Shown here in pieces: positions 2,930-19,653 of a stretch of DNA of 23,696 bases. How positions within the stretch are numbered: position 1 is the stretch's first letter; the number at the start of each line of letters is the position of its first letter. Below the pieces are notes generated by a model. The model saw only the letters and a list, made by a program, of their open reading frames with translations. It did not search any database and was not told the DNA's origin. The position numbers and the translations under genes are program-made. Source of the DNA: a virus; the IMG/VR virus record IMGVR_UViG_3300042454_000043, positions 1 through 23,696 of that record, one strand, 5' to 3'.

Positions 2930-3157
2930 TTAACAATCCTCATCTTCAAAGTTTAACCATTTTAATCTTTGGTCGATTAACTTTATTAACTCGGTTTGCC
3001 ATTCAACCTTTTTGTTTGGGAAATATAGCAATGTGTTCTCTTCAACTTCCCAAAGAAACTCTTTTAAGAAATATAATTCCTTATAGATGTCCTCATCTGC
3101 CATGTCTTCGATTTCCTCTTCAATCGGATTCTCTGGTTTCTCTGGTTTCTTGCTCAT
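2930..3157 (-). CDS. Small acidic hypothetical protein (75 aa)
   Basis: Not recognised. Its ATG overlaps the stop of the metallophosphoesterase gene by 4 nt (ATGA), which fixes the start. The product has a charged, proline-containing N-terminus (KKPEKPENPIEEEIED) and then helices rich in Leu, Trp and Glu (IYKELYFLKEFLWEVEENTLLYF; ELIKLIDQRLKWLNF). No membrane span. Coupling suggests a job linked to its upstream or downstream neighbour, but no function can be given. Confidence 0.6.
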   Translation of the reverse strand: MSKKPEKPENPIEEEIEDMADEDIYKELYFLKEFLWEVEENTLLYFPNKKVEWQTELIKLIDQRLKWLNFEDEDC

Positions 3158-7176: not shown

Positions 7177-7676
7177 TATGATATGCTCCAGTTTTCTAAG
7201 TTTTTAGTATTATCGCAGTTATTGCACGATGCTTGGTCGTATAATGGATTCAAATTTTCGTTTAGCTTTAGCCATTCGAACATTTCCCTTGCATAATTTT
7301 TAGCAATCTGTCTCCAGTAACTTGCTTGCTTTTCGTTGGTGTCAAAATCCACAAATTCGCTTTCGTCTGTAACTTTTCTGACAACGCTTTCCTTTGTCAC
7401 TTGCACTGGATGGAAAAACAAAAAGTCTCCAAACGCATAGCAAACATGCACCTTTTTTAAATAGCACAATAATTCCTCATTTGCAATGCTTATATCTTCG
7501 TCTGTTATTTGTTGGCATAACTCATCGAATAAATCTTGACAAAGCAATTGATTAATGTATGTTATTTGTGTGTTCTTAATAGCAATTTCAATGTCCTCGC
7601 TCTCAATGTTTCTTGAAAGTGGAACGATGCCATAAAAATCTGTTTGTGTTATGAATTGACAACTGCAACAAGCCAT
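7176..7676 (-). CDS. Head-tail adaptor-like protein (166 aa)
   Basis: A mostly helical protein directly after the portal gene, coupled by TAATG overlap. The segment FVDFDTNEKQASYWRQIAKNYAREMFEWLK (split: DTNEKQASYW at about 113-122, then NYAREMFEWLKL at about 127-138) resembles small head-completion or connector proteins of Bacteroidota phages. The N-terminus MACCSCQ and the C-terminal CNNC motif are odd for such a protein and could bind metal or form disulfides. The adaptor role rests on position, size and partial resemblance. Confidence 0.6.
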   Translation of the reverse strand: MACCSCQFITQTDFYGIVPLSRNIESEDIEIAIKNTQITYINQLLCQDLFDELCQQITDEDISIANEELLCYLKKVHVCYAFGDFLFFHPVQVTKESVVRKVTDESEFVDFDTNEKQASYWRQIAKNYAREMFEWLKLNENLNPLYDQASCNNCDNTKNLENWSIS

Positions 7677-9109
7677 TATTTTACTGGATTAATAGGTGTA
7701 ACAACTGGCGCAGACGATGGCTTTGCGCCAACCAATCCCGCTAAACTTCTTATCTCTGCCTCAGACATTGACTCCAATACTTTGTTTGCAACCAATGGCG
7801 ATAATGCGTTAATATTATCAATAATGTTATTTGCCGCAGTGTTCAATTTCACTTCTTTAGCGCCGTAACCAAATGCGTCTCTGATTTCCTCTTCTGTGAA
7901 TGCGTTTGCAAATGATTCTGCAACAAATGCTAAAGGAATTGAGTTGCTTACTTTTATAATTGTGCCATCATAGCCATCCATTAATGTAGCCAATGAGTTC
8001 ATTTCATACATTAATAAATTTTGGTCATGTTTTATGACTGCATTCTGGTAATATATTGACGAATCTGCAATTTCTTTTGCCGTTCCTAACTTACCAGAGA
8101 CTTGAATCCCTGCCAATATAGATGGAACTTGAAATGCAGTTGCAATGTGGTCTCTAATTAAATTTGAAAGTGTGATGTACATTTCGTGTGATGTACTCTG
8201 GCTAAATGGAATGATTTGGATTGACCCCTCTTTTGATGAGCCATCCAAAATCGCAAATTTACCTCCATTGTCTGCGCCAGTTAATCTGTCAGAAATATAA
8301 TCCCTCAATGAATCTTTCATGTCCTTGCCATTCTCATCCACGCCAGTCAATTTGTATGGCACATAAACAATGAATGCAGGCGCAAACGAATTGTCAACGT
8401 TGTTAGCGTGGAAATTTTGAATCTGGCCATCGGCATAAATCCATTTCAATGCAGACGCATATTTTGGTTGCGAATAATACACTTGGCCAGGCTTGTATCT
8501 GCGAATATATTTAAGCGTACCATTCCATTTGCTAAAATCTTCAAATAAAGATTGCTCAATAAAATTTGAAATCTTAGCTTTTGTTTCAATGTCATTATAT
8601 AAATCAATCGGAACGGCTTTGTATCTTCTGTCTTTTGTTTCCTGCTGCCAGTTACTTGACAACTTGGCGAATGTTATTTCAAAATCTTTGTTCGGAATAC
8701 CCAAACGAATGGTTGAAAAATCCTGCGACTTAACACTTTTTAAAAAGCCGTTTAAATCCCATTTCATAATCAATCCTAAACTTTCAAAATATGCCATATC
8801 ATAGCAGATTCTTTGAAACATTGATTCGTTAAAAACCTCGCTTAATTTTTTAGAAAAATCGGTTTCCTCGCCAGTCGGAGTTTCAAAATATAATCCATCC
8901 CCATACAAAAATTTTGCGTGTGTTTCAACGCAAGCGTTTGCGATTGGAGACGATTGGACGGCTTTGATTAGTTCCTGCGGAAAGTTGTTGTCTTTACCAT
9001 AGCGCACAATTTTGTTTGCGGTGTCGTCTGTTTGATTAAAAACAGATAAATCCGCAGGCGCTTTCGCCGAAAACATGAAATAATTGTCCGAAATTTGAGT
9101 TAGTTCCAT
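7676..9109 (-). CDS. Phage portal protein (477 aa)
   Basis: The length and features fit the portal family, the dodecameric ring through which DNA enters the head. Clues are the N-terminal region with KIVRYGKDNNFPQEL and SSPIANACVETHAKFLYGDGL (about 33-75), and the stem/clip-like helical part IRDHIATAFQVPSILAGI with KLGTAKEIADSS followed by a long helix (about 315-365). The C-terminal region is Ala-rich and helical. The start at 9109 is the only sensible one; it follows a 45-nt gap with a TAnnTTTG box five bases before the ATG. In the direction of transcription it comes after the capsid and sugar genes, which is unusual. Confidence 0.85.
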   Translation of the reverse strand: MELTQISDNYFMFSAKAPADLSVFNQTDDTANKIVRYGKDNNFPQELIKAVQSSPIANACVETHAKFLYGDGLYFETPTGEETDFSKKLSEVFNESMFQRICYDMAYFESLGLIMKWDLNGFLKSVKSQDFSTIRLGIPNKDFEITFAKLSSNWQQETKDRRYKAVPIDLYNDIETKAKISNFIEQSLFEDFSKWNGTLKYIRRYKPGQVYYSQPKYASALKWIYADGQIQNFHANNVDNSFAPAFIVYVPYKLTGVDENGKDMKDSLRDYISDRLTGADNGGKFAILDGSSKEGSIQIIPFSQSTSHEMYITLSNLIRDHIATAFQVPSILAGIQVSGKLGTAKEIADSSIYYQNAVIKHDQNLLMYEMNSLATLMDGYDGTIIKVSNSIPLAFVAESFANAFTEEEIRDAFGYGAKEVKLNTAANNIIDNINALSPLVANKVLESMSEAEIRSLAGLVGAKPSSAPVVTPINPVK

Positions 9110-9160
9110 TTTTACAAATTTACTTTTTATTTTAAATAACTATTTGCAATATATTTACAA
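9110..9160 (-). promoter_or_regulatory. Promoter-like -7 box directly before the portal ATG
   Basis: On the minus strand TAAATTTG (9122-9115) is a perfect TAnnTTTG box, five bases before the ATG. Two TTGTAAA words lie nearby (9160-9154 and 9117-9111). No TTTG at the usual 19-nt distance is seen. The same pairing occurs before three other unit-leading genes in this window. If used, the transcript would have almost no leader. Confidence 0.35.
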
Positions 9161-9880
9161 ATCAAAGTGATTAGCAACGTCAATTGTCTTAAAATCTTTG
9201 AAATGTATCATTTCGCCAGTGTCATCAAATCGGTTCCAGATGTCGTATTGCCCATCGAATGCGCTTGACGATGACGAGTTTCTCAGCTTGCGTTCAATAT
9301 TATTGCGGACAAACGAATAGTGGTGCATTCTAAGCCATTCAATTTGCTTATGTTTGGCGTAAGTATTTGTCCGCCTTGTTGGGTCTGCAAAGGCAGGATA
9401 TTTTTTGTCGAAACACATGATTGTTTCCTTGTAAATCTTATGAATAAAAGGAACGAAATAGTCTTCGTCTGGCGATAGTTGTTTTGTTGGGTATTTATAA
9501 TAGGTTTTTAGCCTGCAATAGCTTGCATCCAGTTCCGCAATATAAACTTGCTCCTTTGCACGCTCAAAATCCTCGCTAAAATACATTTCGTCGCAATCCA
9601 TTTGAATGAAATGGGTGCAACCAACGCTCTTTGCAGTTTGCAAACCTATATTTCGTTTGATGGTTTCATTCCACTGAGCGGTTTGCTCAAGCGCAGGAAT
9701 GTAAAAATTTGTAAAATCAATCAATTCGTGTGGCAAAGTTGGCTCATATAATTCGCCAGAATTGCTTACGTTTTGGTAAACGACAATAACAACGTCCAAA
9801 TGTGGTTTGATTAACTCAATAGAACGGCGCAAATGCTCGTCGCCATCCCAAACATTCCAAATGCCTGCCAGTTTATTCAT
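9155..9880 (-). CDS. Glycosyltransferase, GT-A/GT2-like (241 aa)
   Basis: The protein starts with a strand-helix pattern of a nucleotide-sugar binding fold (GIWNVWDGDEHLRRSIELIKPHLDVVIVVY), then KRNIGLQTA at about 75-83 and MDCDEMY at about 94-100, where DCD is a likely metal-binding DxD motif. Later MHHYSFVRNNIERKLRNSS (HHYSFVR at 186-192) is a segment seen in phage and capsule glycosyltransferases. It is the last of the sugar genes before the portal and overlaps the upstream membrane protein by 8 nt. Donor and acceptor cannot be told. Confidence 0.75.
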   Translation of the reverse strand: MNKLAGIWNVWDGDEHLRRSIELIKPHLDVVIVVYQNVSNSGELYEPTLPHELIDFTNFYIPALEQTAQWNETIKRNIGLQTAKSVGCTHFIQMDCDEMYFSEDFERAKEQVYIAELDASYCRLKTYYKYPTKQLSPDEDYFVPFIHKIYKETIMCFDKKYPAFADPTRRTNTYAKHKQIEWLRMHHYSFVRNNIERKLRNSSSSSAFDGQYDIWNRFDDTGEMIHFKDFKTIDVANHFDL

Positions 9881-10148
9881 AATTCGAAACTATTAAATCA
9901 ATAAAATAATTGAATGAGGCCACAATTAACATTGTCGGAATAATATCAATAGTCAAACCAAACAAAAGAGAATGCCAAACGAATGTGTGTAGTGAGGCCA
10001 TGCAAGTTAAACACAAGCAAATTGGCTTTCCAAATATCTTTGGTAATTTATCCGCAAATCTTTGGATAAAATATAAAATATTCCCATGCCTTGTTGACCT
10101 ATAAAAGCCAAAGCATAGCAAACTAATTACAATTGAGTTGTATATCAT
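9873..10148 (-). CDS. Small membrane protein with CxxCMAS motif (91 aa)
   Basis: Two or three hydrophobic segments (about 4-17, 54-64 and 67-85) flank the motif CLCLTCMASLHTFVW (Cys46-Cys49 region). Small integral membrane proteins with a central Cys-x-x-Cys-M/L-A/G motif occur in Bacteroidota phages and resemble DUF1360-type proteins. It sits between two glycosyltransferase genes with 4-nt and 8-nt overlaps, so it may anchor or assist them at the membrane. No enzymatic motif is visible. Confidence 0.6.
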   Translation of the reverse strand: MIYNSIVISLLCFGFYRSTRHGNILYFIQRFADKLPKIFGKPICLCLTCMASLHTFVWHSLLFGLTIDIIPTMLIVASFNYFIDLIVSNYE

Positions 10149-10756
10149 ACAAAAAGTCTTTTCATTTCGTTTGGAACGTATTGCGGAAAAATAAATTCAT
10201 GCGGATGCTTTGACATTAAATAGATAATGTTTTTCTTTTGCTGCTCCCACTTTTTATTGTTGCCATAGTTCTTTGTCCTATCAAAATCCGAATGAGGGAT
10301 GTATCGCATTGACTTAATAAAGTTTTTTTGAATCCCATTTCTGGTTAAAGAAATATATAAATCGGAATCCTCTCCGCCATAGCCTTTGATATTTTCGTCA
10401 TAACCCATAAAATCTGAGCGCTTGACTATGCAATTGCCAGAACAATCTGGTTCCCCAGTGTAATAGTTGCCGTCTTTTAAATTTAATTTATCAAAAAAGG
10501 TTGGGTCTAATAAAGTGTCCGCATCGCAAAAGAAAATCCATTCCTCGTTAGTTTCAGCAACCCCCAAGTTTCTGGCCTTTGATAAATGAAAGTCTTTTGC
10601 GGCCGTCAAGCATGAGCGGATTTTGTTAGTTTGGCAATATCTATATGCCATCTCATCGCCGTAACAAACAACGAATATCTTTGATTTATCTTTAATAGTT
10701 GCAATACACTTTTTTAAATGCAGCAATCTATCTTTACAAGTTATAATTATATCCAT
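10145..10756 (-). CDS. GT2-family glycosyltransferase (203 aa)
   Basis: A compact GT-A glycosyltransferase. Visible motifs are the N-terminal strand MDIIITCKDR with HLKKCI, SKARNLGV at about 59-66, FFCDADTLLDP at about 75-85 (DxD metal site DAD) and GYGGEDSDLYISL at about 125-137. The last is the conserved block of the galactosyl/N-acetylgalactosaminyl transferase C-terminal domain. At 203 aa it is shorter than most GT2 enzymes but has all core motifs. It overlaps the methyltransferase gene by 10 nt and the membrane protein gene by 4 nt. Confidence 0.85.
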   Translation of the reverse strand: MDIIITCKDRLLHLKKCIATIKDKSKIFVVCYGDEMAYRYCQTNKIRSCLTAAKDFHLSKARNLGVAETNEEWIFFCDADTLLDPTFFDKLNLKDGNYYTGEPDCSGNCIVKRSDFMGYDENIKGYGGEDSDLYISLTRNGIQKNFIKSMRYIPHSDFDRTKNYGNNKKWEQQKKNIIYLMSKHPHEFIFPQYVPNEMKRLFV

Positions 10757-11274
10757 AAAATTCCAATTCCGCCCCAGTCAGAACCCTCAATAAATTCGTC
10801 ATGCTCTTTGCCGTCTTTGATTTCGTTCCAGAACTTATCCACTCGACAGAACAATTCTCTATGCAATGGCGTGTCAATAATGTCATGGAATGCAATCACT
10901 CCGCCTTTACGCACAAACTTAGAGTAAATTTCGTAATCTGCCTTAACTCCCTCATAAGTATGGTCGCCATCAATCATAAGAAAATCAATCTTTGCATTGC
11001 TATTGCCCAGTGCTTTGATTAACTCAGCTTTCAATTCTTTAGAGTCTCCGATTAAATAATCCACGCCGTCAATGTTTGAACGTTGAGACATATCAATTGA
11101 AATCACTTTGTCAAACAATCCTTTGTAAGCATGCAAGCATCCGCCATCATAGCTGCCAATTTCAACGGCAATCTTTTTACTCTTCATTGAGTTTAGGGCA
11201 TGCAATAACTCTTCAAATTCTAATGGCTTCTGTTGAGCCTTATTGTTTATCGCCAACTGGACTAATGTCTTCAT
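10747..11274 (-). CDS. SAM-dependent methyltransferase, class I (175 aa)
   Basis: The Rossmann-type methyltransferase motifs are clear: VEIGSYDGG at about 37-45 (SAM-binding loop), SIDMS at 59-63 (acidic residue for the ribose) and FLMIDGDHTYEGVKADYE at about 98-115, followed by KGGVIAFHD (123-131). The IDGDHTYEGV block is typical of the methyltransferase 24 / cephalosporin-hydroxylase-like group, members of which often methylate sugars in glycan clusters. Its location between glycosyltransferase genes supports glycan methylation. The start overlaps the 59-aa gene by 35 nt. Confidence 0.82.
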   Translation of the reverse strand: MKTLVQLAINNKAQQKPLEFEELLHALNSMKSKKIAVEIGSYDGGCLHAYKGLFDKVISIDMSQRSNIDGVDYLIGDSKELKAELIKALGNSNAKIDFLMIDGDHTYEGVKADYEIYSKFVRKGGVIAFHDIIDTPLHRELFCRVDKFWNEIKDGKEHDEFIEGSDWGGIGILWI

Positions 11275-11419
11275 ATTCTATGGTTATTTTTTTACCGATT
11301 ATTTTATTTAATTTTTCTGCCTGCTCGACATTCATTATGTAATCATTTAGATACATTTTTTTGACAACTTCCATGTAAAGGCCGTCATCGTCTTTTCTCA
11401 ATACTCCTTTAATTTTCAT
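11240..11419 (-). CDS. Small hypothetical protein in the sugar cluster (59 aa)
   Basis: Open frame from ATG 11419 (sharing an ATGA overlap with the 57-aa membrane gene) to TAA 11240. AAGGAG occurs only inside the frame, so initiation probably depends on coupling. The product is mixed alpha/beta with basic patches (MKIKGVLRKDDDGLYMEVVKK in two blocks, then AEKLNKIIGKKITIEYEDI). It overlaps the methyltransferase start by 35 nt in another frame. Not recognised. Both overlaps and the lack of any other explanation for this stretch support it. Confidence 0.55.
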   Translation of the reverse strand: MKIKGVLRKDDDGLYMEVVKKMYLNDYIMNVEQAEKLNKIIGKKITIEYEDISPVGDKQ

Positions 11420-11589
11420 GCTTTATAAATTATAAAGAAAATCCCCAACTCAATTAAAATTGTGATAATTGTTTTAGTGTAGTAAATTCGAGAGCCGCCG
11501 TATTCTTTAAAGAAACTCCAGTCCTTTTTGTAAATTTTATTGTATGACATCAAAACGATTAATGCCAGAATGATTTTATAAATGTTCAT
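11416..11589 (-). CDS. Small two-span membrane protein in the sugar cluster (57 aa)
   Basis: Open frame from ATG 11589, which overlaps the stop of the upstream glycosyltransferase (ATGA), to TGA 11416, which overlaps the next ATG in the same way. Two hydrophobic segments, about residues 3-14 and 39-54 (TIITILIELGIFFIIY), flank a basic loop (NKIYKKDW, FFKEYGGSR). It would be a small hairpin-like inner-membrane protein. Function unknown; double coupling to sugar genes suggests it helps place them at the membrane. Confidence 0.6.
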   Translation of the reverse strand: MNIYKIILALIVLMSYNKIYKKDWSFFKEYGGSRIYYTKTIITILIELGIFFIIYKA

Positions 11590-12239
11590 ATTGTTCTATG
11601 ATGGTTAAAGTATGAATTTGCCCCCATGCCCCATTGACAAGGCGATGTCGTTAATTTTATATTGTGTTTGACCGCTAAGTTTGTTAAAATACTTTGGTCG
11701 TGTCTGTGAGCCTTAAATCCGCTCAATTGATAATCTGGATTAAACTCATCATTGACAAGCATAAGATTTGAGCAAAGATTAAAATATTCCTGCACAAACG
11801 CTCTGGTCTCTGGTGTGTTTCTGTAAATCTGAATTGCTGCATTGGCTTGCATTTGGTCTGGCATGCAGACAACGCCCATGTCGTAATATGTCTCAGACTT
11901 GCACCAATCAATGTGTCTTTGGCCGTTATGAAATAGCTTTATATTTTCGCCCTCTTTGATTAAGTCATTTGGATTCTTTAGGCATTCAATTGTTGAGTCC
12001 AGATACATAACATATTCGCCCTCGTCAATAATGTTCAAAATGTAATCTATTAAATAAGGTTTCCAAAGCCACCAACCATAACCCCGAGACGAATATAGAT
12101 GCTCTGGGTAAGCATCAAAAAGCATTTCAACACTCTTCTCGTTAAACGTTTTAGTGTACATAAATCTGCTCATGGATTTATGCAATTTATCGATTGCTTG
12201 TTGATATTCTTTTGTCCCGAAAGTTATGCAGATTGGCAT
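11586..12239 (-). CDS. Glycosyltransferase-like protein with WLWKP motif (217 aa)
   Basis: The stretch SRGYGWWLWKPYLI at about 51-64, MYLDSTIE at 78-85 (the YLD site stands where a DxD-like metal motif is expected) and RHDQSILTNLAVK at about 179-191 match a group of GT-A-like glycosyltransferases found in capsule and lipopolysaccharide clusters, in which the Trp-Leu-Trp-Lys-Pro block is a strong mark. Length is typical for this small group. The start overlaps the fucosyltransferase-like gene by 16 nt. Sugar donor unknown. Confidence 0.72.
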   Translation of the reverse strand: MPICITFGTKEYQQAIDKLHKSMSRFMYTKTFNEKSVEMLFDAYPEHLYSSRGYGWWLWKPYLIDYILNIIDEGEYVMYLDSTIECLKNPNDLIKEGENIKLFHNGQRHIDWCKSETYYDMGVVCMPDQMQANAAIQIYRNTPETRAFVQEYFNLCSNLMLVNDEFNPDYQLSGFKAHRHDQSILTNLAVKHNIKLTTSPCQWGMGANSYFNHHRTI

Positions 12240-13003
12240 TTGCTTTGAATAAAATTAAATATATTTAGTTCGCTAAAATAGTATTCTTTTTGCTCTTCGA
12301 CAAGTTTTTCTGAATCGCCCATGCTTGCCAGTGAAATAATAGCCTCTAAACGTTGCATTGTATTTTCAGCAATGGCCGAATAAGGTATCGGAAACGCATT
12401 GCAAATGACAATATCCCAGAATTTTTCTGTAACATAATAGTCCTCAACAGAATTTTCAATGCAAATAGACGTGTGGTAATCAATCAAACCATCTTTTTTT
12501 TCTTTTAATTCGCCTTTGTATCTGGCATCCTTAATGTCCCAACCTTTGCCATAAATATCAATGTCCAAATCCGATGCTAATATCTTTTCAACCAATTCGT
12601 TTCGGAATCCATACAACGTTCCCTCTCTCGGTTCTTGTTTGGCCACTATAAAACTGCACTTTTTAGTCTTTTGGGCTTTTAAATTCATAGCATCTTCGTA
12701 ATCTAAGCCAGTCCAATTAAACATCATTGGCAATTGGTTATTCACTGGCGCAATAAACTCAGCAACTTGCCCAGTCCAATCCTTATAATTTCCAGACCAA
12801 CTCGGTTCTTGGGCAAACGCAAATGTTTTTGCAGGGTCTTTTATCTTTTCTATTGTGTCATTGAATATAAAAAGCAAGTCATAGTCATTGCCATACGTAA
12901 ATTCAAAATTTTTGACCGCATTTTTTGGAGCAAATTGTCTCATGACCTCACTTGCCAACCTTTCAGATGTGGCATAGTTGCTCGTTAGTTTTACTTTTAG
13001 CAT
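12224..13003 (-). CDS. GT10-family fucosyltransferase-like protein (259 aa)
   Basis: The C-terminal half carries the alpha-1,3-fucosyltransferase signature: ICIENSVEDYYVTEKFWD at about 180-197, with ENS at 183-185 and TEK at 192-194, followed by CNAFPIPY, where the family has a similar aliphatic-Pro-Val segment. YGKGW at about 151-155 fits the nucleotide-sugar domain. GT10 enzymes transfer fucose (or a related 6-deoxy sugar) from GDP to a glycan, usually in the cytoplasm in bacteria. It overlaps the preceding 225-aa gene by 7 nt and the next by 16 nt. The real sugar may differ from fucose. Confidence 0.8.
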   Translation of the reverse strand: MLKVKLTSNYATSERLASEVMRQFAPKNAVKNFEFTYGNDYDLLFIFNDTIEKIKDPAKTFAFAQEPSWSGNYKDWTGQVAEFIAPVNNQLPMMFNWTGLDYEDAMNLKAQKTKKCSFIVAKQEPREGTLYGFRNELVEKILASDLDIDIYGKGWDIKDARYKGELKEKKDGLIDYHTSICIENSVEDYYVTEKFWDIVICNAFPIPYSAIAENTMQRLEAIISLASMGDSEKLVEEQKEYYFSELNIFNFIQSKCQSA

Positions 13004-13674
13004 AAATGTTTTATTTTAAAGTTTTTAGTTGCGCAAAAGGTTGAAAAAAAACGCTCGCAAATGAATGTGTGCATCGGATAATATTTAACCCCAGTAATTT
13101 GTTTAATTTTATCTGGCGAAAATCGCCCGCACTTGTATTTAGTGTCTGTAAATAATCGATTCTGCAACCATTTATCTTCGGTCTGAGCCATTATATCCAT
13201 TAAAGGTATTAACCATGTGCAAACAAACTCTTCGTATAACTCAGAGCGTGAAACGTGGGCGTTTTGGTAAATGGTCGGAGTGTTTAATCGGTCTATTTTT
13301 AGGCCATTGAATTGATTAAATATATATTGAGCCGTCTCAATTATTCCAGAATGCCAGTTCTCAGCAACTCTCCAGACATTCGGCTGCGTGTGCAACCTAT
13401 AAAACGTGTATATGTCGAAATCTTTAACGTCTGTCTCTAAGTTTTTAAGCCAATATGAGTTTTTTGATTCAAATTGCCATGAAAAAACGCCAAAGTATTC
13501 GGCCTCTTTATGCTTTCCCTGCTCAATTAGTTCTCGAATGATATGATTCTCAAATGCAGGCTGAAACGCTTTGCCCTCATAAATAGAATTGTCATAGCCA
13601 ATTGCGTTTGGACTTATATACTTCTTTGTTTTGTCATCAAAGTATATTTGATAAATTACTGATTTTGCAGCCAT
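12997..13674 (-). CDS. DUF4422-like or other glycan-related protein (225 aa)
   Basis: Not firmly recognised. It has an N-terminal part with IYQIYFDDKT and a block ENHIIRELIEQGKHKEAEYFGVFSW at about 42-66 (ENHIIREL; YFGVFSWQF), and a C-terminal half with NAHVSRSELYEEFVCTWLIPLMD and HTFICERFFSTF (about 202-213). The C-terminal pattern, an Asn followed by a seryl/tyrosyl helix and a later ERxF/LS block, recalls DUF4422-type capsule glycosyltransferases. Being first of the large genes in the sugar cluster supports a glycan role. The exact reaction is open. Confidence 0.5.
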   Translation of the reverse strand: MAAKSVIYQIYFDDKTKKYISPNAIGYDNSIYEGKAFQPAFENHIIRELIEQGKHKEAEYFGVFSWQFESKNSYWLKNLETDVKDFDIYTFYRLHTQPNVWRVAENWHSGIIETAQYIFNQFNGLKIDRLNTPTIYQNAHVSRSELYEEFVCTWLIPLMDIMAQTEDKWLQNRLFTDTKYKCGRFSPDKIKQITGVKYYPMHTFICERFFSTFCATKNFKIKHLC

Positions 13675-13832
13675 CTGTATGCTCTTTTATAACACGACCC
13701 ACATCCAGTCGATAATCTATTTCCAGTTTGTCTTTTGTACATGTCAAATATTAAATTCCAGACGATGTCCTTTCTGCTCATTGCTTGTCCGCCTTGCGCA
13801 CTCACATAAATTTTGATTTCTGGTATTGTCAT
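13656..13832 (-). CDS. Small conserved-type protein with CGSC motif (58 aa)
   Basis: The start is taken at ATG 13832, where the protein reads MTIPEIKIYVSAQGG; a longer reading from 13886 would run through the terminator hairpin, so it is rejected. The C-terminal half is a basic helix with GCGSC near residues 43-47 (LSTGCGSCYKRAYRWL). Small proteins with a single CxxC near a helical end are frequent in Bacteroidota phage structural regions; function unknown. It overlaps the 225-aa gene by 19 nt and lies just after the terminator, behind a TAnnTTTG box, so it probably leads the sugar unit. Confidence 0.6.
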   Translation of the reverse strand: MTIPEIKIYVSAQGGQAMSRKDIVWNLIFDMYKRQTGNRLSTGCGSCYKRAYRWLQNQ

Positions 13833-13836
13833 AAGG

Positions 13837-13858
13837 CAAATATAGTAATATTTTACAA
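13837..13858 (-). promoter_or_regulatory. Promoter-like site for the sugar-gene unit
   Basis: On the minus strand TTGTAAA (13858-13852) is followed after 7 nt by TATATTTG (13844-13837), a perfect TAnnTTTG box, four bases before the ATG of the 58-aa gene. It directly abuts the T-run of the terminator at 13857-13897, so it is placed to restart transcription. The closeness to the ATG means a nearly leaderless message. Confidence 0.4.
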
Positions 13859-13897
13859 AAATAAGAGAGGCGACATGGTTTCCCAAATCGCCTCTCT
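13857..13897 (-). terminator. Strong rho-independent terminator after the structural block
   Basis: On the minus strand a perfect 10-bp stem (AGAGAGGCGA paired with TCGCCTCTCT) encloses a 14-nt loop and is followed by TATTTTTG. It lies 22 nt after the stop of the 188-aa structural protein. It should end the capsid/tail transcript before the sugar genes begin. Confidence 0.88.
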
Positions 13898-13919
13898 AAA
13901 CATTTTTGTTTAAAACTAA

Positions 13920-14486
13920 TTAAGCAATTTTGCTCTCTAAATAAGCCTTTGTCGCTTGGTAGCTTGTTACAAAGAAATCTGGTGCTAACTCTGACTCTCC
14001 GCCCATAGGCTGAGACAAAGTAATATTGAACGCATTGTCATCGCCAATTAAAACTCCAGTCGCTTTTGTAAGCGCAGTGATTTCTAAACCTGCTGACATG
14101 CCGTACAATTCAAATGTACCATTTGTCTTTTCAACTACAACGAATAAATCGTCAATCAATTTTAAATTATCCCAAACATTTTTAGCGTCTTGTGTTTGTT
14201 GCTGAAATTTACCAGTAATCGTTTGTGTAAACGATTTGATATTGTTTTCGCCAGTAACCAACTCTTGACTTGCTCCTGCGCTTTTTGTTTTTGCGCAGAA
14301 CTTGTAAAGATAGTTGTATGGTTGTAAACCTATTGCAGTAACAACGTTCTCGCTATCTGTCGTGAATCCACTATCGGTCAAATCCGATAGTGAACCCACG
14401 TAAATGTTTTTGGCTTTTATTCCGCCTACTGACTGCAAATCTTCGCAAGTCGCACAAGCTAATCCACTAACTATTCCACATGGCAT
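13920..14486 (-). CDS. Probable major tail protein or other abundant structural protein (188 aa)
   Basis: The protein follows the major capsid gene and has one of the best ribosome binding sites in the window. It begins MPCGIVSGLACATCEDLQ, then GGIKAKNIYVGSLSDL, followed by beta-rich sequence with SFTQTITGKFQQQ and a C-terminal PDFFVTSY/AYLES region. Size, strand-rich composition and place fit a tail tube or a similar abundant virion protein in Bacteroidota siphophages. The N-terminal CGIV/CATC cysteines are uncommon for a tail tube. A head decoration protein is an alternative; no motif decides. Confidence 0.55.
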   Translation of the reverse strand: MPCGIVSGLACATCEDLQSVGGIKAKNIYVGSLSDLTDSGFTTDSENVVTAIGLQPYNYLYKFCAKTKSAGASQELVTGENNIKSFTQTITGKFQQQTQDAKNVWDNLKLIDDLFVVVEKTNGTFELYGMSAGLEITALTKATGVLIGDDNAFNITLSQPMGGESELAPDFFVTSYQATKAYLESKIA

Positions 14487-14494
14487 GATATTGT

Positions 14495-14500
14495 CTCCTT
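14495..14500 (-). promoter_or_regulatory. Strong Shine-Dalgarno site of the 188-aa structural gene
   Basis: AAGGAG lies 8 nt before the ATG at 14486, after a run of A. Most genes here lack such a site, so this suggests heavy translation, as expected for an abundant virion protein. Confidence 0.6.
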
Positions 14501-14517
14501 TTTTTTAAGTTAAATAA

Positions 14518-15492
14518 TTATGATAATGCAATAACTGATAAATCGCCATAGATATATTGAGTTCCCATTTTGAACTCAGCATCGATGTAATTCATTTTGT
14601 CTCTTTTATCATAAAAGAAATCTAATGTATTTGTGTCAGAAATTGCATCTGTACCAATAACTAAATTCTCTCTGTATGTGTAAACCGCTCTGTGTTTGCT
14701 ATTCAAGTTATTAGCATTGATTACTTGAGACCAACGTGATTTCTTGTAAACTGGAATGCCTCTGAATTGTAATACTCTCGCAGCTTGCTCAACCATATCC
14801 CATGATTTGTCTCCACAACAAGCATCTTCACGACAAGTCAAATAATTGTCATATAACTCTCTGGTTAATGCAAAGTATTTGTCGCCCTCTGGCATTTGGT
14901 CTAAGATGTCTGGTGCAATTTCGTACATTGAACGCAATACATCTAATGCAGTACAATCGCCTAAAGTCGATGCAATTGCTACTCTTTTAACATCGTAAGC
15001 GTTTGCGCCTGCAATTAAGCGAGCCCATACTCCAGTACATGATGCTAAAGTGTCATTTGATGAGTTCTCATCGCCAAACCAAGCAATATCGTAAACGTCT
15101 AAACGCACTGCGTTTGTAACTTTCTCAATAATGTAGTTTTCTACGATAGTTCCCTCTAAGTTTTGAGCCTCGTTACCAGTTCTCAAAAACTCTTCCATGA
15201 AAGTGTTTTTTAAGTTCTTAGCACATTGGTCTAAGTTTACTTTTAAATCACATACTTCAATAAATTTCTCAGTGATGTCAACTACATCGCCTGCATTATC
15301 ACGACCGCAACCAACTGATGGACGAACTACGCCCGAAAGGATTGTGTCTAATGCTAATTGTCTTTTTGATTTAATATCTAAAATGATACGAAATTCGTTT
15401 TGTAACTCTGGAGTTAAAAACGTTGGTTTTATTAAAACCTCGTTAGCTTGTTGCCCTGCCCAACTAACGTTAATGTCTAATACATCTGCCAT
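14518..15492 (-). CDS. Major capsid protein (324 aa)
   Basis: Length, place directly after the protease/scaffold gene and sequence character fit the main head protein. Features include an N-terminal helical arm (about 20-60; TPELQNEFRIILDIKSKRQLALDTI), a mixed alpha/beta body, and a C-terminal beta part with SKHRAVYTYRENLVIGTDAI, DKRDKMNYIDAEFKMGTQYIYGDLSV. It has eight cysteines, including CREDACCGD at about 221-229, which is a lot for a cytoplasmically made capsid protein. The HK97 fold is expected from the family context but cannot be proven by eye. Confidence 0.78.
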   Translation of the reverse strand: MADVLDINVSWAGQQANEVLIKPTFLTPELQNEFRIILDIKSKRQLALDTILSGVVRPSVGCGRDNAGDVVDITEKFIEVCDLKVNLDQCAKNLKNTFMEEFLRTGNEAQNLEGTIVENYIIEKVTNAVRLDVYDIAWFGDENSSNDTLASCTGVWARLIAGANAYDVKRVAIASTLGDCTALDVLRSMYEIAPDILDQMPEGDKYFALTRELYDNYLTCREDACCGDKSWDMVEQAARVLQFRGIPVYKKSRWSQVINANNLNSKHRAVYTYRENLVIGTDAISDTNTLDFFYDKRDKMNYIDAEFKMGTQYIYGDLSVIALS

Positions 15493-15519
15493 TTTCTTGT
15501 TGTTTTATTTTTTGTTTAA

Positions 15520-16056
15520 TTAATATTGTTTTTTAATGTTTTCTGCAACGATGTCAAATGGCGATTTTTTAACCTCTGACTTTGCTGCTGCTGCGTTTAC
15601 TACTTTAGTCTCAGCCGTTTCAACTAATGACTTTAACGCTTTGAATTCTTTGTCCATTTTCGCTTTGAATGCTGCACTTGCAGTTTCAATTGTTGCTTTC
15701 TCAGCTTTCAATGCAGTGATTTCAGCATTTAACGACTCAACTTGAGCGGTTAAAACTTCTGTTTCATTTACTGCCTCTTCTGCTTCAACTTCAACCTCAC
15801 GAATCTCAACGATTACGCCTGCTGCGTCAACTAAAATGATTTTGCCAGTTGCTAAAGCATGCTCGCCCTCTGGTGCAAAAGTTGTCATGGTTTCGTCTGT
15901 GTAAACTGGTTTCCCAACTTCTAACTCGCCGTCTCCATATAAAATTGTAATTCCGTCTGCCAATGGCTCAACGAAATTTGTTGGCTCTGTGCCAGTCAAT
16001 GCCTCTTCAATAGCCTTGAAAGCAGAGGCAATTTTGTTTTTGAAATTTGTATCCAT
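15520..16056 (-). other. Possible in-frame scaffold start inside the protease gene
   Basis: ATG at 16056 (residue 182 of the protease-scaffold protein) follows AACGATAAAATAAAA, an A-rich sequence like those before other starts here. It lies right after the protease domain, and starting there gives a 178-aa product made of the strand domain and coiled coil. Lambda Nu3 is the known parallel of a scaffold made from inside a protease gene. Confidence 0.35.
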
Positions 16057-16599
16057 TTTTATTTTATCGTTAAATTTTCCGAATGCTGCAATTGGCATCC
16101 TTACCGCATCCACAAAGCCAAGTTCTTTTGCTTGTTGTGGTGTCATGTAAGTTGTTTTATCCATCATTGCCATGATGGCCTCAATTGATTTGTTTGTTTT
16201 CTTTGAATAATTCTGAGCAAGGATTGTGTCGATTTGAGACAAAGCCTCTGCCGTTGACTTAATTTCGTTTGCAGTTCCCTGCGCTCCGCCACTTGCATTG
16301 TGAATCATGTATTGAGCAGTTTCACTCATTTCCACATAAGATGCCGCAGATGCAATTAGAGTTGCAATTGAGCCACAAAAACCATGAATGTATGCCGTAA
16401 TTTTTAGACCTGCATCCTGCAAATCGTTGTAAATAGAAAAACCCTCGTAAACGCTGCCGCCTCGTGAGTTAATTATCAATTTGATTTCTTTTGACCCTTG
16501 TGAATGTGCCTTTGAAATTTCAGACCTAACGTAATCGGCCGAGAGTTCGCCCTTGTCAGTTCCAATGTCCTTATTGATTAGCAAATTGTAAATTTCCAT
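15520..16599 (-). CDS. ClpP-like prohead protease fused to a scaffold-like C-terminus (359 aa)
   Basis: The first 175 residues are a ClpP/S14-type serine protease, as used by many phages to trim scaffold and capsid proteins. LIINSRGGSVYEGFSIYNDL is the hydrophobic/oxyanion region (41-60), FCGSIAT has the nucleophile Ser77, MIHNASG has His100, and MDKTTYMTPQQAKELGFVD (146-164) contains the likely acid Asp147. The second part has a small repeat-like strand domain (about 205-265, TNFVEPLADGITILYGDGE; EGEHALATGKIILVDAAG) and a long coiled coil (about 275-345, LTAQVESLNAEITALKAEK), typical of scaffolds. An internal ATG at residue 182 could give separate scaffold. A -7 box lies 5 nt before the ATG. 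Confidence 0.86.
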   Translation of the reverse strand: MEIYNLLINKDIGTDKGELSADYVRSEISKAHSQGSKEIKLIINSRGGSVYEGFSIYNDLQDAGLKITAYIHGFCGSIATLIASAASYVEMSETAQYMIHNASGGAQGTANEIKSTAEALSQIDTILAQNYSKKTNKSIEAIMAMMDKTTYMTPQQAKELGFVDAVRMPIAAFGKFNDKIKMDTNFKNKIASAFKAIEEALTGTEPTNFVEPLADGITILYGDGELEVGKPVYTDETMTTFAPEGEHALATGKIILVDAAGVIVEIREVEVEAEEAVNETEVLTAQVESLNAEITALKAEKATIETASAAFKAKMDKEFKALKSLVETAETKVVNAAAAKSEVKKSPFDIVAENIKKQY

Positions 16600-16604
16600 G
16601 TTAA

Positions 16605-16650
16605 CAAAGTTAGCGGAAATACAAATGTGCTTTTTGTAAAGTTTTTACAA
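16605..16650 (-). promoter_or_regulatory. Promoter-like site and palindrome before the protease gene
   Basis: On the minus strand TAACTTTG (16612-16605), a perfect TAnnTTTG box, lies five bases before the ATG at 16599. Upstream, TTGTAAA-AAC-TTTACAA (16650-16634) is a perfect inverted repeat starting right after the stop of the 81-aa gene. TTTG occurs at 16625-16622 but with only a 9-nt spacer. The palindrome could be an operator or activator site. Confidence 0.35.
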
Positions 16651-16896
16651 TTAGATTTTCTTTACAATATAGATGACCGAATGAATGCTTTTGCAGTATT
16701 TCTCTGCTAAGTCTGCATAGATAATCATTTTGCTTTTTTTATTCTTAATGACTTGCTCTTCGTATTCGCAACGAATTAAATATCGCTCCATGTCGCCAGT
16801 TGTTAGCGCACATTTCTCGGCTAAATGATAGGCCACATTATTGCAATCGCCAAAAGTGGTGTCAATTCTGGTGTAAAATTCACGTTCAATGTTCAT
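16651..16896 (-). CDS. Small protein with possible helix-turn-helix end (81 aa)
   Basis: Not recognised by name. The start overlaps the stop of the 39-aa gene (ATGA). The N-terminal half is helical with FYTRIDTTFGDCNNVAYHLAEKCAL, and the C-terminal end, IIYADLAEKYCKSIHSVIYIVKKI, reads like a helix-turn-helix (ADLAEKY, turn, SVIYIVKK). This could bind DNA in packaging or in regulation. Position between the tape measure and the protease gene is where this phage group often keeps tiny conserved genes. Function unproven. Confidence 0.6.
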   Translation of the reverse strand: MNIEREFYTRIDTTFGDCNNVAYHLAEKCALTTGDMERYLIRCEYEEQVIKNKKSKMIIYADLAEKYCKSIHSVIYIVKKI

Positions 16897-19630: not shown

Positions 19631-19653
19631 CAAATTTAGTAAATTTTTTACAA
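19631..19653 (-). promoter_or_regulatory. Promoter-like site before the 54-aa gene
   Basis: On the minus strand TTGTAAA (19653-19647) is followed after 8 nt by TAAATTTG (19638-19631), a perfect TAnnTTTG box, four bases before the ATG at 19626. The TTGTAA overlaps the last codon and stop of the upstream gene. The layout is almost the same as before the 58-aa gene at 13832. Confidence 0.4.

Follow-up and report, generated by a model that had tools for sequence, protein, structure and literature searches.

Why should a small tailed phage carry a run of sugar-transferring enzymes amongst its head genes, and what do these enzymes modify? The question is raised by the IMG/VR virus record IMGVR_UViG_3300042454_000043, positions 1 to 23,696 of which form the 23,696-nucleotide window analysed here, a contig from a tailed phage whose genes lie on the minus strand. 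In order of transcription the window presents tail genes, the tape measure protein, a protease, the major capsid protein, an adaptor-like protein, a protein with a CxxC motif, a block of nine genes (positions 9155–13674) and the portal protein (Table 1). A preliminary description, made from the sequence alone, had proposed that this block encodes a multi-step glycan pathway directed at the virion. There is good support for the pathway itself, with its GT10 enzyme and O-methyltransferase placed between the genes for capsid and portal. As to its target, we consider it somewhat better than an even bet that a short methylated glycan is built stepwise in the cytoplasm, on a virion protein and from host sugar nucleotides.

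The block encodes a GT111/DUF4422-like glycosyltransferase, a GT10 enzyme, a GT-A enzyme with the motif WLWKP, an O-methyltransferase, a GT2/GT7-like enzyme, a DxD protein with the motif DCDEMY and the small proteins memA, sm59 and memB. The motifs quoted earlier (ENS/TEK, GYGGEDSDL, WLWKP, DCDEMY and IDGDHTYEGV) were each found in an open minus-strand frame, and all frames from the CxxC gene through to the DCDEMY gene overlap one another. The interval to which the earlier count of nine coupled genes was applied (9155–13832) in fact holds ten, and the first of its small genes, the CxxC gene at 13656–13832, is an old gene of the head region that lies outside the pathway. Three of the six enzymes (GT10, GT2 and Methyltransf_24) have a match in Pfam, with none found for the WLWKP, DUF4422-like and DCDEMY proteins.

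The GT10 protein exceeds the PF00852 cut-off and possesses the C-terminal donor-binding domain with its ENS..Y(V/I)TEK motif. A profile search of the PDB led to glycoprotein 3-alpha-L-fucosyltransferase A (9s6a, E = 9e-8), with the donor-site motif ENS..YYVTEKFWD aligned; the donor would be GDP-fucose or something similar. The GT2 enzyme is also above cut-off (PF00535) and both its DAD triplet (residues 78–80) and GYGGED are invariant. Its nearest PDB profiles, weakly matched, are GmaR and SunS (E = 0.003–0.008), which glycosylate proteins or peptides: a weak point in favour of a protein acceptor. The methyltransferase, in addition to its Methyltransf_24 match, shows similarity to RMNT_CmcI (E = 0.008), a family of rhamnosyl O-methyltransferases, and in one Bacteroidota genome a member of the same family (TylF type) is encoded next to a homologue of the WLWKP protein. 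The protein is probably a sugar O-methyltransferase, a sugar being its presumed substrate.

Structure prediction, suggested in the preliminary description as a check, was run on two of the enzymes. The WLWKP model was best matched in VIA-align by domain 1 of PBCV-1 A064R (2p72, Z = 14.5), with GT6 enzymes about equal (up to 13.9, the two together spanning 13–14.5), whilst Foldseek identified LARGE1/GlyE (E = 1e-6); the model places this protein firmly in the GT-A fold. Chromosomal homologues were found in 9 of 395 Bacteroidota genomes, and of four loci examined closely, three had as neighbours TylF/Methyltransf_24 methyltransferases with a GT2, a GT-B enzyme, or a GT2 together with a Wzx-type protein. 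In cyanophage P-TIM68, a WLWKP domain is fused to a GT2 within a sugar cluster. For the GT111-like model, the best VIA-align match was the N-terminal domain of WbbM (6u4b; Z = 10.9 over 185 residues, 13% identity), the next family reaching Z = 6.8, but a Foldseek search of the PDB with the same model returned nothing below E = 0.1 and the Pfam DUF4422 profile found nothing at E<1 in the window protein, and two distant members gave no hit at E<0.5 either. The DUF4422 domain is equivalent to GT111 (PMC12269835). The window protein differs from WbbM, a GT111 galactofuranosyltransferase and its nearest fold, in being a single-domain product of about 225 amino acids without a Pfam DUF4422 match. 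Its gene is kept in all relatives, and the model lends the earlier DUF4422 assignment moderate support.

The DCDEMY protein has phage relatives only in the Lak megaphages of Prevotella (27–29%). It has no match in Pfam or the PDB, and profile–profile comparison revealed no similarity to the WLWKP or GT111-like proteins, the alignments used being too shallow; a scan of the 395 Bacteroidota genomes also gave no match but lacked a positive control and is uninformative. Its DxD motif and genomic context make it a candidate glycosyltransferase. The earlier enzyme identities are thus upheld for GT10, GT2 and the methyltransferase by Pfam and for WLWKP by its fold, and less strongly for the DUF4422-like protein, whereas DCDEMY is a candidate by motif and setting.

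A scan of IMG/VR with the capsid protein yielded 40 loci. Wherever a contig spans the region, the enzymes follow the CxxC gene and precede the portal gene without change of order, as in 19 contigs besides the window: 12 close relatives (L005, L011, L013, L015, L016, L018, L019, L021, L025, L026, L046 and L069) and seven distant ones (L028, L029, L033, L036, L038, L040 and L059), the latter with enzymes at 53–78% identity. The comparison of related phages suggested beforehand therefore did find the cluster with the same structural genes, and because both set and order recur in these contigs the gene set is not a product of chance. The cluster is retained in members down to 76% capsid identity. 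Median dN/dS (the ratio of nonsynonymous to synonymous substitution rates) is 0.03–0.11 for the cluster genes, 0.08 for the capsid, 0.05 for the portal and 0.19 in both the tape measure protein and the tail-region protein g21113. Judged by these ratios, purifying selection acts on the cluster genes much as it does on the head genes, and they are stable and not hypervariable. Retained content and order, taken together with dN/dS, therefore mark the block as an old and maintained part of the lineage. As to the small genes, memB is present in all members of the near and far groups although it has no family match and no phage match, sm59 is restricted to the near group and L028/L029, and memA is found in the near group and, at 35–37%, in L040/L061, but was not detected in most other relatives, having been lost or having diverged in the distant group. 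Among the head proteins of the lineage the adaptor-like protein is conserved best, at 91% in the far group compared with 78% for the capsid.

What does the site look like without the cluster? It can be seen in 12 distant phages and prophages of Bacteroidales: Bacteroides phage BS-TP3, IMG/VR loci L089–L095 and the Bacteroidales genomes L096, L098, L099 and L100. Here the genes for protease, capsid and adaptor are followed by the CxxC gene (190–256 amino acids) and then by portal, with nothing between these last two. The CxxC protein of the window aligns to the start of this longer protein (42% by BLAST in L100), C-x-x-C-Y being invariant, which identifies its gene as an ancestral one of the head region, here shortened and outside the pathway. 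The alignments indicate that the enzymes are inserted behind the shortened CxxC gene, whose overlap with the GT111-like gene is the same in the relatives examined. Between the adaptor and portal genes of Bacteroidales phages (L042, L089, L096 and L098–L100) an uncharacterised CxxC-Y protein is thus conserved, and the lineage of the window has it in a form reduced to about 58 amino acids.

The preliminary description had placed the block inside the virion operon and drawn from this its argument for a virion target. The first of these most likely does not hold. A predicted terminator hairpin followed by a U tract lies between the adaptor gene and the putative promoter of the CxxC unit, and five of its pairs show compensatory changes across 13 relatives. 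The sequence TAnnTTTG, the Bacteroidota −7 box, occurs 11–15 nucleotides before the start of the protease gene, the CxxC gene, the portal gene and g19462, that is, at a fixed distance in four genes where 0.5 would be expected under uniform placement. Sigma-70 and terminator scanners found nothing above shuffled sequence, the signals having come from the Bacteroidota consensus and from folding, and Rfam gave no match. Having its own putative promoter and a putative terminator in front, the glycan block most probably forms a separate transcription unit that begins with the CxxC gene and uses the promoter class of the head units, instead of being an insertion in the capsid operon. Because promoter class and position are shared with the protease and portal units, co-expression with head genes is likely. 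The argument for a virion target is softened accordingly, although this target is still plausible and the one that we favour. The position of the boxes relative to the start codons also suggests very short 5' leaders for several genes.

Table 1 Features of the window, in order of transcription (near group, close relatives; aa, amino acids; AF2, AlphaFold2; pLDDT, predicted local distance difference test; SAM, S-adenosylmethionine)
Feature	Position	Strand	Evidence and remarks
Further TAnnTTTG boxes	16605–16612; 19631–19638		
ClpP-type head protease	15520–16599	−	
Major capsid protein, anchor for comparison	14518–15492	−	phrog_1623 5e-5; 24% identity to BS-TP3 capsid protein
Adaptor-like protein	13920–14486	−	
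Putative terminator hairpin after adaptor gene, then U-rich tract	13864–13897	−	−24.7 kcal/mol, z −7.9
Putative −7 box TATATTTG before CxxC/glycosyltransferase unit	13837–13844	−	Conserved at about −12 in near group and L028
CxxC head-region gene, 58 aa, heads transcription unit (probable)	13656–13832	−	Overlaps GT111-like gene by 19 nt
GT111/DUF4422-like glycosyltransferase, putative UDP-galactofuranose-type transferase	12997–13674	−	AF2 pLDDT 70
GT10 (fucosyltransferase-type) glycosyltransferase, motif SIENSVEDYYVTEKFWD	12224–13003	−	Pfam PF00852 (Glyco_transf_10) 2e-8
WLWKP retaining-type GT-A glycosyltransferase	11586–12239	−	AF2 model pLDDT 79
memA, small membrane protein, accessory	11416–11589	−	Hydrophobic segment
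sm59, small accessory protein	11240–11419	−	Weak PHROG match of unknown function
SAM-dependent methyltransferase, IDGDHTYEGV	10747–11274	−	Methyltransf_24 (PF13578) 3e-12, above cut-off; RMNT_CmcI 0.008
GT2 glycosyltransferase with GT7-type GYGGEDSDL	10145–10756	−	PF00535 (Glycos_transf_2) 2e-7; PF02709 (Glyco_transf_7C) 5e-5
memB, small membrane protein, 91 aa	9873–10148	−	Hydrophobic segment; invariant GKPICLCLTCM
DCDEMY protein, candidate GT-A glycosyltransferase	9155–9880	−	DCDEMY (DxD) invariant
Putative −7 box TAAATTTG before portal	9115–9122	−	Conserved in all near and far relatives examined, at −13 to −15
Portal protein, anchor for comparison	7676–9109	−	phrog_11226 5e-32

The Bacteroidota host proposed earlier is borne out by the conserved TAnnTTTG promoters, by the scarcity of Shine–Dalgarno-like sites (6 of 36 genes) and by the named relatives of the capsid and portal proteins, which are mostly Bacteroidota phages, with Salmonella SEN4/5 as the exception; a host search by genome scan found only distant prophages in Bacteroides and relatives. 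Four relatives (G001–G004, 33–35 kb) have exact terminal repeats of 121–127 bp and are therefore probably complete circular maps, the window itself being a fragment. The integrase profile PF00589 found no match in 12 records, four of them circular, other integrase types not having been searched, and lysogenic conversion was rejected on this result. No NAD-epimerase match was found in any record; supply of its own sugar nucleotides by the phage was rejected for this reason, and the sugar donors would thus have to be supplied by the host or made by enzymes of unrelated families. In the genomes checked for hydropathy, no open reading frame has at least three hydrophobic segments except one encoding a 120-amino-acid protein, leaving no candidate for a flippase, polymerase or oligosaccharyltransferase, which fits soluble stepwise synthesis. 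The lineage is one of small, uncultured and lytic-looking phages of Bacteroidota.

How might such a pathway operate? Four recognisable glycosyltransferases (GT111-like, GT10, WLWKP and GT2/GT7-like), probably with DCDEMY as a fifth, would act in the host cytoplasm on host nucleotide sugars, the GT10 enzyme using its fucose-type donor and the others UDP-hexoses. An oligosaccharide of about 4–5 sugars with one O-methyl group would be built step by step, directly on a head protein such as the capsid or the adaptor, either ahead of assembly or while it proceeds, and the small membrane proteins would have an accessory part. The sequence and direction of these steps, the sugars involved and the role of the virion as acceptor are inferred. 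Virion glycosylation is favoured because the enzymes are soluble, come without genes for donors, export or lysogeny, and are kept with the head genes under the same promoter class. Several points nonetheless weigh against it. With a putative promoter of its own and a location behind a putative terminator, the block is more than a mere part of the capsid operon; cytoplasmic glycosyltransferases of this kind also modify lipopolysaccharide core or capsule precursors; and the WLWKP homologues in Bacteroidota chromosomes occupy polysaccharide-type clusters. In L038, moreover, nonsense codons interrupt GT10 (TAG) and GT2 (TAA) at positions 3081 and 4782, the other cluster genes checked being intact, so that this phage may be able to do without the pathway, provided that the codons are not errors of assembly.

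The closest parallel to glycosylation of the virion is found in the chlorovirus PBCV-1, where capsid glycosylation (A064R, A061L and A111/114R) also relies on virus-encoded, mostly soluble cytoplasmic glycosyltransferases and SAM methyltransferases. In A064R, whose architecture the block resembles, a GT-A domain, a second glycosyltransferase and a methyltransferase assemble the methylated terminus of the glycan on the capsid (PMC9614988), and it is domain 1 of this protein that best matches the WLWKP fold, GT6 folds being about equal. PBCV-1 is, however, a large algal virus in which capsid glycosylation is known, whereas here separate single-domain genes are found in a 33–35 kb tailed phage, with capsid glycosylation as their proposed role. 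Mycobacteriophages also encode glycosyltransferases, with glycans on the C-termini of capsid and tail-tube proteins (Freeman et al. 2023, as cited in PMC12619734); in comparison, the host phylum here is different and the set is larger, with GT10, GT111-like and methyltransferase genes. With both systems the lineage shares virus-encoded glycosyltransferases retained throughout. Tentatively, and with rather less than even confidence, we suggest that these small lytic phages possess a complete, dedicated cytoplasmic pathway for coating their heads in a fucose-like O-methylated oligosaccharide, selected as a standing feature of the particle and parallel to, but independent of, the chloroviruses. 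Glycosylated phage particles have so far been documented mainly in mycobacteriophages (as cited in PMC12619734). A glycan unit kept by selection amongst the head genes of a whole lineage suggests that phages use virion glycans more widely, a strategy of relevance to adsorption, stability, escape from host defence and recognition by predators or immune systems. The compact set of small soluble glycosyltransferases (about 200–260 amino acids), the GT111-like enzyme included, may also be amenable to expression and assay.

Because homologous enzymes act there, modification of the host envelope is the main rival to virion glycosylation. A surface glycan (lipopolysaccharide, capsule or surface glycoprotein) would be altered during infection, blocking superinfection or the re-adsorption of progeny to debris. 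The chromosomal WLWKP loci, with their Wzx-type protein, GT2 and TylF-type methyltransferases, are consistent with this, as are the two small membrane proteins within the block and the action of WbbM, the GT111 prototype, on O-antigen. Serotype-converting gtr clusters are likewise phage-borne clusters of glycosyltransferases. Here, however, neither a GtrA-like flippase nor a polytopic Gtr-type transferase has a candidate, and with no integrase (PF00589) match in the circular relatives there would be no long-term benefit from lysogenic conversion. The cluster also lies among head genes and shares their promoter class, and its fixed content and purifying selection are not the swapping expected of surface arms races. 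We regard this explanation as unlikely, at perhaps one chance in four.

It is more doubtful still that the block is moron-like cargo from a host polysaccharide locus, having another or no role in the particle, such as modification of a secreted or lysis-related glycan: homologues in Bacteroidota chromosomes and a promoter of its own behind a terminator, typical of morons, speak for this, but strict retention under purifying selection across the lineage, including the members most diverged in capsid sequence (76% identity), speaks against it. That the glycan is built on modified DNA bases to counter restriction, an alternative listed in the preliminary description, is very improbable, for although virus-encoded glycosyltransferases decorating DNA are known (as cited in PMC12619734) and the distant relative G001 encodes a Tet_JBP oxygenase and a TET-associated glycosyltransferase (TAGT), the three other circular cluster-bearing relatives (G002–G004) have no TET or TAGT match, no record has a thymidylate synthase match, and TET, where present, adjoins its own glycosyltransferase, so that, on the searches for these families, DNA modification was rejected as a general explanation.

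The G001 genes form a cassette of the TET/TAGT DNA hypermodification type at a locus separate from the glycan cluster, some 14–15 kb away, and the other relatives showed no such cassette. On the minus strand of G001 (L102), positions 13214–16782, the Tet_JBP oxygenase, the TET-associated glycosyltransferase, a kinase-like protein, a nucleotidyltransferase-like protein (GGNGTRM) and a ParB-domain protein are encoded side by side, probably constituting a cassette for glycosylation of 5-hydroxymethylcytosine (5hmC) in DNA.

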